Source: Hydrogenimonas sp.
Lineage (GTDB): Bacteria > Campylobacterota > Campylobacteria > Campylobacterales > Hydrogenimonadaceae
Direction of reading: 5' to 3'
Length of the DNA stretch: 64,000 nt
NCBI GenBank assembly: GCA_003945285.1
Contig: AP019005.1
Coordinates: 1,240,001 to 1,304,000 of the forward strand
The translations under genes and the position numbers were made by a program. Under the pieces are notes generated by a model, which saw only the letters and a program-made list of their open reading frames with translations, was not told the origin of the DNA and did no database searches. Below are positions 4,582 through 60,239 of this stretch, one piece after another; within the stretch, counting starts at the first letter, position 1, and each line of letters opens with the position of its first letter.

Positions 4582-5465
4582 CTACGCCTCCATACCAGAA
4601 GTAGTGCTATCAAAAGAGTGCCGATACCCAGAGGCCATGCGTAGTAGTACTCTTTTTTCAGATACTTTCGCCCCTTGATCTCACTCTTTTCAAGCCTGTC
4701 TATCGTCCTGTAGACCTCTTTCAGCCTCTTGACGCTGTCGGCATCGAAGTATCTGCCTCCAGTCTCACCGGCAATCTTTTCGAGTACATAGGGGTTGAAG
4801 TCGCCCGGCTGGCCCACACCTATCGTATATACCTTTATCCCGTACTTTTTCGCCGTATTAATCGCCACCTCCAGGGGTACCGTCCCGGCATTGTCCATAC
4901 CGTCGGTCAGCAAAATGGCAATCTTGTTTTTGGCACTGGAGTTCTTGAAGAGCTTGGTGCTCATGAAGAGCGCTTCATAGAGTGCTGTCCTGCTTGTTCC
5001 GGCTATTCCTACCTCCACTCTATCCAGAAGGCGCAGAAGCGACTCTTTGTCGTAAGTCAACGGCACCGCGACATAGGCGAAATCCGCAAATATCGTAAGA
5101 CCGATCTTGTCGTGTCTTCGCTCTTTGACGAACTCCTCCACAATTCCCTTCACTATGTCGAACTTTCCGCCCTCCGCCATGGAGCCGCTCGCATCGAGTA
5201 TCAAAGATATCTCGTACCCCTTGTCGTTCTCCACCTCGAACTCGTTTTCGACAACCGGCGAAGCCAGTGCGGTAACAAGCATCGCGAAAGCGGCGAACTT
5301 CGCGATTTTCGAGAGTGTGGAGACTCTGCGCCCCGCCCTTTTGAGCCAAACGGTCCCGGGAAAGATGATACTCTCGAAACGCGGTTTGCAGAACCTCATA
5401 CATACGATATAAAGAAGCAGCAGCAAAAATGCGGCAGGATACTCGAAGAGGAAGGTTCCGTTCAT
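4578..5465 (-). CDS. batA: BatA-like VWA-domain membrane protein
   Basis: A 295-residue protein with the same architecture as the following gene: membrane segments at about 10-24 and 55-70, a VWA domain at about 85-265, and a C-terminal membrane segment ending in WRRR. The MIDAS motif DASGS is at 91-95, with the other ligands in GTSRTA and LLTDGMDN. The short Arg-rich end places the C-terminus in the cytoplasm. The start overlaps the preceding DUF4381-like gene by 4 nt. In the generally accepted model, BatA and BatB cooperate with the MoxR ATPase encoded at the head of this operon. Confidence 0.88.
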   Translation of the reverse strand: MNGTFLFEYPAAFLLLLLYIVCMRFCKPRFESIIFPGTVWLKRAGRRVSTLSKIAKFAAFAMLVTALASPVVENEFEVENDKGYEISLILDASGSMAEGGKFDIVKGIVEEFVKERRHDKIGLTIFADFAYVAVPLTYDKESLLRLLDRVEVGIAGTSRTALYEALFMSTKLFKNSSAKNKIAILLTDGMDNAGTVPLEVAINTAKKYGIKVYTIGVGQPGDFNPYVLEKIAGETGGRYFDADSVKRLKEVYRTIDRLEKSEIKGRKYLKKEYYYAWPLGIGTLLIALLLVWRRR

Positions 5466-7672: not shown

Positions 7673-7732
7673 GTCACTGCCGACTAACGAAAACAAATTG
7701 ATGGTAAATGAAGGGTAAACACCTCTTCCTCC

Positions 7733-7829
7733 AAGGCCTTACACAAAGCTTGAGCCAAGCCCGGCTTTGGCGGAAAAGGCACTCCCCTGTACCCCCTAAA
7801 GCTTCGAAAACAAGCGAAGCGCAGTTTCT
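7733..7829 (+). repeat. Family B element, degenerate copy
   Basis: This stretch reads TTACACAAAGCTTGAGCC, then GGCTTTGGCGG and CCCTGTACCCCCTAAAGC, matching in order the left half and centre of family B copies at 21630 and 35380. The right end is not recognisable: the sequence diverges and runs into the target duplication of the adjacent family A copy. It is probably an old B insertion next to which an A element landed. Confidence 0.55.
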
Positions 7830-7836
7830 TTAGTAA

Positions 7837-8024
7837 CTGACCTTACGCAAAATTTGTCAGTCCCGGGATTTGAGCTGAAAAATATCGTTCAAAAAACCGC
7901 GCTTGCCCGTCAGGGCGCCAAAGGCGTCAGCGGTTTTCAGGGGGCCTTAAGAGGTGCCCTATAGATATTTTGCAGCGTCCCGCAGGGCAAATCCGCTAGG
8001 CGTGTGGATTATGCGTAAGATGGG
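7837..8024 (-). mobile_element. Family A non-autonomous element, copy 1
   Basis: This 188-bp element runs from CTGACCTTACGCAAAAT to a partly decayed right end, ATTATGCGTAAGATGGG. It is flanked by an exact 7-bp direct repeat TTAGTAA (7830-7836 and 8025-8031), the footprint of transposition. It is inverted relative to the copies at 19496 and 51516. The core matches them, including CTGCGGGACGCTGCAAAATATC on the reverse strand. A central palindrome pairs AAAACCGC with GCGGTTTT-type sequence. It contains no open reading frame and lies between the divergent moxR and sensor kinase genes. Confidence 0.85.
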
Positions 8025-8176
8025 TTAGTAAATTGCAGATTTCGAGTTTTGGGGGTTATCCCTTTTATATAACGTCCGTTGATATTTTAAACTATAAAAA
8101 GTTAACCGTTTACATTTTTCCAAAAATGACGATTTAGATTCCAGCAATATTTTTTTTGAAAGAAACGGCATCATTT

Positions 8177-14824: not shown

Positions 14825-14987
14825 CCCAAATCTCGAAATAGAATAGTTTGAAATCGTTGCGATGCTTGTAGTCAGGCGGTTTCGGGAAAATTTGAGGCGC
14901 ACCCGTCAGGTGCGTCGACGGTTTTCCCGGAAGTGCATGGCTGCAATGATCGTGACGAGTTCTTCTATCTCTATTTCGGGATTTGGG
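14825..14987 (+). mobile_element. Family C non-autonomous element, copy 1 (between clcA and trkA)
   Basis: A 163-bp element from CCCAAATCTCGAAATAGA to TCTATTTCGGGATTTGGG, giving terminal inverted repeats of 18 bp with one mismatch. The interior (TTGCGATGCTTG, CAGGCGGTTTCGGG, GCGCACCCGTCAGG, GCATGGCTGCAATGATCG) matches the copies at 28124, 33463 and 60077. Only TTTT is shared by the two flanks, so the target duplication is not clear here. The element separates clcA from trkA, supplies the clcA stop codon and lies just upstream of the trkA ribosome binding site. Confidence 0.85.
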
Positions 14988-19478: not shown

Positions 19479-19495
19479 TCAAACCCTTTTAATAG

Positions 19496-19656
19496 CTGAC
19501 CTTACGCAAAATCCGCACGCCGGGCGGGATTTACCCTGCGGGACGCCGCAAAATATCTATAGGGTACCTCTAAAGGTCCCTGACGGGTAAGCGCGGTTTT
19601 TTGAACGATATTTTTCCGCTCAAATCCCGGGGCTGACAAATTTTGCGTAAGGTCAG
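19496..19656 (+). mobile_element. Family A non-autonomous element, copy 2
   Basis: A 161-bp element beginning CTGACCTTACGCAAAAT and ending ATTTTGCGTAAGGTCAG, a perfect 17-bp terminal inverted repeat. It is flanked by the exact 7-bp direct repeat TTAATAG at 19489-19495 and 19657-19663. The interior is nearly identical to the copy at 51516 apart from a shorter central palindrome. It contains no open reading frame. It occupies most of the space between purU and the upstream PAS-GGDEF-EAL gene. Confidence 0.92.
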
Positions 19657-19745
19657 TTAATAGTTTACGTGATTATCCCCGATTTTGCATTAGAATCGCT
19701 TGAAATCCGCCAAACGCCTGTTCCGCATGTAGTTGACGGCCGGAC

Positions 19746-21629: not shown

Positions 21630-21752
21630 CTGATGTTACGCAAAGCTTGAGCAAAGCCCAAGCTTTGGCGGGGAATGTCCGTCCCCTGCACCCCCCTAAA
21701 GCTACGAAATCGTAGATTTCGAGATGACGTTACGCTTTTTGCGTAACGTCAA
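21630..21752 (+). mobile_element. Family B non-autonomous element, copy 2
   Basis: A 123-bp element beginning CTGATGTTACGCAAAGCTTG and ending TTTTTGCGTAACGTCA(A). The right end forms the perfect hairpin TGACGTTACGC-TTTTT-GCGTAACGTCA. The core GGCGGGGAATGTCCGTCCCC matches the copies at 35380 and 48312. No matching direct repeats flank this copy (TTACCAA versus ACGGTAT). It lies in a 369-nt gap between the PAS-GGDEF-EAL and patatin genes; the rest of that gap shows nothing recognisable. Confidence 0.8.
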
Positions 21753-30901: not shown

Positions 30902-31011
30902 CTTACCCAAAACCGTTCCAGCCGTCACAGCGCCCAACACCCCTGCGGTTTTTGGATATTTTCCGGCGTCCCGCGCGGCAGATCGCGTTCGGCGTGCCGA
31001 TTTTGGGTAAG
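30902..31011 (-). repeat. Diverged family A-related element
   Basis: A 110-bp stretch bounded by perfect inverted repeats CTTACCCAAAA (30902-30912) and TTTTGGGTAAG (31001-31011). Its right part (GATATTTTCCGGCGTCCCGC, then CGGCGTGCCGA) aligns with the core of family A copy 1 (GATATTTTGCAGCGTCCCGC). Both termini carry the same change (CCC for CGC), so this may be a sub-family rather than simple decay. No clear target duplication was found. It begins six bases after the stop of the preceding gene. Confidence 0.65.
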
Positions 31012-31066
31012 GGTAACGGAGCAGAACTCACCGGCAGATGTTCCATATTCGCGTTATATCGGCCGG

Positions 31067-35379: not shown

Positions 35380-35502
35380 TTAATGTTATGCAAAGCTTGA
35401 GCAAAGCCCAAGCTTTGGCGGGGACTGTCCGTCCCCTGCACCCCCCTAAAGCTACGAAATCGTAGATTTCGAGATGACGTTACTCTTTTTGCGTAACGTC
35501 AG
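35380..35502 (+). mobile_element. Family B non-autonomous element, copy 3
   Basis: A 123-bp copy nearly identical to that at 21630 (shared GCAAAGCTTGAGCAAAGCCC, GTCCGTCCCCTGCACCCCCC, GCTACGAAATCGTAGATTTC). The left terminus is mutated (TTAATGTTATGC) and the right terminus is intact (GCGTAACGTCAG). Flanks CTTTTCA and ATAATTG do not match, so no target duplication is visible. It lies directly upstream of the OmpA-like lipoprotein gene. Confidence 0.8.
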
Positions 35503-48311: not shown

Positions 48312-48432
48312 CCGGCGTTACGCAAAAGGCGTAACGTCATCTCGAAATCTGCGATTTCGAAGCTTTAGGGGGTGCAGGGGCGGCCGCTCCCCGCCAAAGC
48401 TTGGGCTTGGCTCAAGCTTTGCGCAACATCAG
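48312..48432 (-). mobile_element. Family B non-autonomous element, copy 5
   Basis: A 121-bp copy inverted relative to 21630. It begins CCGGCGTTACGCAAAAGGCG, runs through GGTGCAGGGGCGGCCGCTCC and ends TTTGCGCAACATCAG. The flanks TTAATAA (48305-48311) and TTAAGAA (48433-48439) agree at 6 of 7 positions, a slightly decayed target duplication. The left flank contains the stop codon of the preceding gene. The hairpin end (GTTACGC-AAAAG-GCGTAAC) may also act as a terminator. Confidence 0.85.
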
Positions 48433-51500: not shown

Positions 51501-51515
51501 ATCGAAAATAAATAA

Positions 51516-51680
51516 CTGACCTTACGCAAAATACGCACGCCGAACGGGATTTGCCCTGCGGGACGCTGCAAAATATCTAAAAACCGCTGACGCCTTCGGC
51601 GCCCTGACGGGCAGGCGCGGTTTTTTGATCGATATTTTTCCGCTCAAATCCCGTGGCTTACAAATTTTGCGTAAAGTCAG
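51516..51680 (+). mobile_element. Family A non-autonomous element, copy 3
   Basis: A 165-bp element with termini CTGACCTTACGCAAAAT and ATTTTGCGTAAAGTCAG (one mismatch). It is flanked by TAAATAA (51509-51515) and TAAATGA (51681-51687), a 7-bp target duplication with one change. The centre holds AAAACCGC...GCGGTTTT around a GACGCCTTCGGCGCC palindrome. It ends 22 nt before the chemoreceptor start codon and so forms most of that gene's leader. Confidence 0.9.
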
Positions 51681-51702
51681 TAAATGAATGAGAGAAGAGA
51701 GT

Positions 51703-60076: not shown

Positions 60077-60239
60077 CCCAAATCCCGAAACAGAAATAGA
60101 AGAACTCGTCACGATCATTGCAGCCATGCACTTCCGGAAAAATCATCGACGCACCTGGCGGGTGCGCCTCAAATTTTTCCGAAACCGCCTGACCACAAGC
60201 ATCATAACGATTTCAATCTATTCTATTTTGAGATTTGGG
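60077..60239 (-). mobile_element. Family C non-autonomous element, copy 4
   Basis: A 163-bp element from CCCAAATCCCGAAACAGAAA to TTTTGAGATTTGGG, inverted relative to 14825. It is flanked by the exact 5-bp direct repeat TTAAA (60072-60076 and 60240-60244). The left duplication contains the TAA of copB. The interior CGTCACGATCATTGCAGCC, GGTGCGCCTCAAATTTTTCC and CCGCCTGACCACAAGCAT matches the other copies. Confidence 0.92.

Follow-up and report, generated by a model that had tools for sequence, protein, structure and literature searches.

A MITE family in a Hydrogenimonas chromosome that matches NF049921 IS701-like elements in ends, target duplications, and target sites

What are the short, geneless repeats scattered through this stretch of a Hydrogenimonas sp. 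chromosome (64,000 nucleotides; the window), and which enzyme moved them? An earlier note described three copies of a MITE-like element, here family A, with 17-bp termini and 7-bp target duplications, and held that a transposase encoded elsewhere must move them. On rereading the sequence, all three copies and the duplications at their edges were found as that note had given them (Table 1). Its description of the ends as a 17-mer and the reverse complement of that 17-mer holds for copy 2, the only one of the three window copies with two perfect 17-bp ends. The right ends of copies 1 (CCCATCTTACGCATAAT) and 3 (CTGACTTTACGCAAAAT) have four mismatches and one mismatch, respectively, to the reverse complement of the 17-bp end. 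With 3 or fewer mismatches allowed, the 17-mer matches seven sites in the window, compared to 0.24 expected by chance. Two features had been overlooked: a fourth, decayed copy of family A and the nesting of copy 1 within the relic of a second MITE family (family B). Two of the copies precede genes: copy 2 sits a short way upstream of one for a formyltransferase (purU-like), and copy 3 immediately upstream of one for a chemotaxis receptor.

Table 1. Repeats of families A and B in the window (positions are those of the window)
Feature	Position	Strand	Remarks
Family A MITE copy 1	7837..8024	-	188 bp; extra hairpin-tip sequence variant; right terminus degenerate
Copy 1 left target duplication	7830..7836	.	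TTAGTAA
Copy 1 right target duplication	8025..8031	.	TTAGTAA
Family A MITE copy 2	19496..19656	+	161 bp; both 17-bp ends perfect
Copy 2 left target duplication	19489..19495	.	TTAATAG
Copy 2 right target duplication	19657..19663	.	TTAATAG
Family A MITE copy 3	51516..51680	+	165 bp
Copy 3 left target duplication	51509..51515	.	TAAATAA
Copy 3 right target duplication	51681..51687	.	TAAATGA (6/7)
Family A, decayed, truncated copy	30909..31012	-	78% to consensus positions 5-109
Family B MITE	21630..21752	+	123 bp; terminus CTGATGTTACGCA
Family B MITE	35383..35501	+	then second partial copy from 35507
Family B MITE	48316..48432	-	match G000:C1:1288316-1288432
Family B relic hosting nested copy 1	7720..7829	+	bounds approximate

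Family A is dispersed throughout the single-contig host chromosome (2,193,435 bp). A BLAST search with the 161-bp copy, in which 40 of 96 candidates were scored, gave at least 42 matches, and a recount with the consensus on fetched DNA placed the family at 65 sites, a lower bound, of which 49 were full length. The 65 places divide into 33 on the plus strand and 32 on the minus strand, so that the occurrence of both orientations, previously claimed for the window, extends to the genome. The terminal inverted repeat (TIR) pattern was found at 171 sites in the host genome and at none in a reversed control. The consensus is 165 bp long; copies diverge from it by 5.3% on average, and the least diverged differ by 1.2%. 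Lengths range from 154 to 189 bp, mostly reflecting extra sequence at the hairpin tip, with two further copies of 435 bp, and the elements have no transposase gene inside. Both 435-bp forms (L035 397-831 and L037 339-772) carry a further inverted-repeat core at the hairpin tip, which had no other match among the fetched loci. They look like possible precursors of the short forms, and the simplest reading is that the 165-bp form arose from longer ones through loss of hairpin tips. An ORF-based survey of 30 copies showed almost all of them to be intergenic, with tandem, divergent, and convergent settings represented alike. Neither viral contigs nor a collection spanning 84,980 species, from which the host genome was excluded, contained a TIR pair spaced as in family A.

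Exact 7-bp target site duplications (TSDs) flank 14 of the 35 delimited family A copies (13 identified by script plus window copy 1, whose scripted edge was 1 base off). Exact 8-bp TSDs flank another 3 of the 35, six copies have a 6/7 match, and one (L002), read by eye, is compatible with a 9-bp duplication containing a single mismatch. As a control, left flanks were paired with right flanks taken from other copies, and 0.3% of these pairs matched exactly. The earlier note had made transposition depend on 7-bp duplications at copies genome-wide and on orthologous empty sites in relatives; the former are present as described, and the latter were found at three loci in genomes of the same genus. 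When the flanks of window copy 2 are joined, they align element-free to two of these genomes, G010 and G001; in the latter, the alignment takes in both neighboring coding regions, with a junction approximately as long as the joined target. Two other insertions (L008 and L004) correspond to continuous or near-continuous element-free orthologous sites in G001, G003, and G010. The 15-bp end CTGACCTTACGCAAA occurs in none of the 17 same-genus genomes. Given these empty sites and the absence of the end, family A would therefore have spread after the split from the other species of the genus, or else have been lost from all of them. The proposal that the element is a MITE is borne out by its dispersed copies, target duplications, and empty sites: family A is short and geneless, is bounded by 17-bp TIRs, and has ends in common with an autonomous element.

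That element was recognized through a relative (G035) in which the same 15-bp end stands directly before a transposase gene interrupted by the contig end. The encoded protein matches NCBIfam NF049921 (transpos_IS701_2), and complete IS copies with this transposase type turned up among the 200 relatives searched. The host has a C-terminal relic of such a transposase (G000:C1:1600119-1600427, minus strand), 103 amino acids long, 61% identical to the complete L065 transposase, and ~13 bp from a matching terminus, CTGACGTTACGCAAG. No intact NF049921 transposase was recovered in searches of the host genome, only this relic, and searches of the same genome for DDE_5 and DDE_Tnp_1 gave no match, as did a search of phages with the transposase. 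Candidates for an autonomous copy were defined as host TIR pairs 1 to 2 kb apart; the single candidate (856236 to 858163) was rejected since it encloses ordinary genes, e.g., acetylglutamate kinase (by eye from the translation). A putative Cas9-like reading frame, also recognized by eye, lies within ~0.3 kb of the relic (L245 1008-4001; G000:C1 about 1600707-1603700).

The NF049921 elements and family A agree in three respects. The 13-bp end CTGAYSTTACGCA is common to NF049921 IS elements in other phyla and on plasmids, and the MITE ends share 13 to 15 of 17 bp with the IS ends. Among 70 delimited copies of the IS, 34 have exact 7-bp TSDs, 9 have exact 8-bp TSDs, and 1 has a 4-bp TSD, with many of the exact-TSD copies coming from a single Polaromonas genome. 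Flanks read by eye at four plasmid copies gave three exact 7-bp TSDs and one of 8 bp. An intact Campylobacterales IS (L158, JAFGUB010000007.1) is flanked by an exact TTACTAA duplication. The symmetrized TSD consensus is nearly identical in the two sets, TTANTAA (T.89 T.79 A.75 N T.75 A.79 A.89 for the MITE and T.90 T.78 A.79 N T.79 A.78 A.90 for the IS). In contrast, the IS is ~1.1 kb long with a transposase gene, whereas the MITE is far shorter and geneless, and its interior has no similarity to the IS beyond the ends. With interiors that appear unrelated, an origin of family A by internal deletion of the IS seems unsupported.

Because ends, duplication length, and target consensus all agree, which is the main evidence, we consider it very likely that these MITEs are nonautonomous cut-and-paste transposons moved by an IS701-like NF049921 transposase. 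A DDE transposase of this family would have recognized the MITE ends (CTGACCTTACGCA), excised the elements, and placed them into TTANTAA-like targets cut with a stagger of 7 bp (sometimes 8 bp), which would account for the flanking duplications. The earlier expectation of a transposase encoded elsewhere stands insofar as there is an IS701-like family whose ends and TSD length agree with those of the MITE, but in the host that family was found only as a relic. The lack of an intact NF049921 transposase in the host, and the failure to find an intact autonomous element with exactly the 17-bp end, could indicate that some other transposase family, with a similar end and a 7-bp stagger by coincidence, moved the MITEs. 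We regard such a coincidence as improbable, since the end, the TSD length (mostly 7 bp, less often 8 bp), and the target consensus all agree with NF049921 elements and the NF049921 relic in the host adjoins such an end. As searches of the host genome turned up no intact copy of such a transposase, family A is probably stranded and would now be immobile unless the transposase re-enters, for example on a plasmid.

The whole family A element folds as an imperfect snapback hairpin (-74 kcal/mol; z = -6.7). Such a strong hairpin, the mostly intergenic positions, and a terminator-like stem in one copy might suggest functional dispersed elements (terminators or structured RNAs) under selection rather than transposons, but this reading is very improbable, being strongly disfavored by the exact target duplications and the empty orthologous sites, and also at odds with the end missing from same-genus genomes, the lack of preference in gene orientation, and the absence of any Rfam match in the window.

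The two arms of the hairpin carry matching changes more often than expected by chance. When the 17-bp ends were compared across 33 copies, the identical change appeared in both arms at 6 positions, compared to 0.7 expected when arms were re-paired (reached in 0 of 10,000 shuffles). The excess persists (P = 0.0001) without copy L002, whose change is common to L018. Over 18 copies, 5 base pairs show a double change, compared to 0.6 in shuffles (0 of 500), and each of the five is confined to a single copy. Templated repair of one arm from the other is known as quasi-palindrome correction. The matched changes could reflect such repair or selection for matched ends, and the data fit either. Tentatively, and with more doubt than conviction, we raise the idea of a self-correcting MITE, in which one arm templates repair of the other so that the ends stay matched, and in which deletions at the hairpin tip turned the 435-bp form into the short one. 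L002 and L018 both have CCGACC at both ends; this common end variant suggests that a changed pair of ends is still able to transpose.

Family B, a 123-bp unit with the same kind of terminus as family A, gave at least 49 hits in the host genome. Its copies often neighbor one another, and most of its duplications have decayed, with 2 of 22 exact. Family B probably depended on the same type of transposase as family A and is probably the older passenger. The nesting of copy 1 has a parallel elsewhere in the host, where family A copy L019 likewise lies within a family B relic-like stretch. In G021, a genome from another family of the order, a distinct small element (L061 about 4716-4850 and L062 about 67-196) has the CTGACCTTACGCAAA end together with an inner palindrome and is probably an independent MITE. 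A third repeat, 53 bp long, lies in the window at 14916-14968 (plus strand) and 60096-60148 (minus strand), with about 28 matching places in the host genome and one in G012. Both window copies of this repeat are preceded by a hairpin-like stretch, GCGCACCCG(T/C)CAGGTGCGTCGA.

MITEs as such are well known, and so are cases in which ends and duplication length tie a MITE to a parent IS. MITEAba12 of Acinetobacter is short and geneless, with ends and duplication length that match a resident IS, and its proposed parent, ISAba12, makes 9-bp duplications and has copies in the same strain (PMC6382973). The parent of MITEAba12 is thus resident, whereas that of family A was found as a relic only. A plasmid member of NF049921 (CP024913) is annotated "group ISAba11." ISAba11 has an IS701-family DDE transposase (PMC7326120) and is similar in length to the NF049921 IS (~1.1 kb), but its description sets it apart, with a duplication of 5 bp (PMC7885321) compared to the 7 to 8 bp of family A. 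Because the L065 transposase at 1e-20 matched 3 Acinetobacter plasmids and no more, ISAba11 is probably a more distant group than the NF049921 elements. In the literature searched, no printed IS had the family A ends. Family A is a new MITE family, well resolved and ordinary in kind, with minor surprises in its 7- to 8-bp TSD (compared to 5 bp for ISAba11), its matched arm mutations, and its 435-bp forms.

Ends, duplication length, and target consensus are three independent features by which an orphan MITE family is here tied to a specific transposase family. Since NF049921-type IS701-like elements make 7- to 8-bp duplications at TTANTAA, their MITEs should be recognizable in other genomes. 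The host represents a case of MITE families outlasting their own transposase. With at least 65 copies of family A and at least 49 hits of family B, mostly intergenic, these elements may be a substantial source of promoter alteration for a genome of 2.2 Mb.
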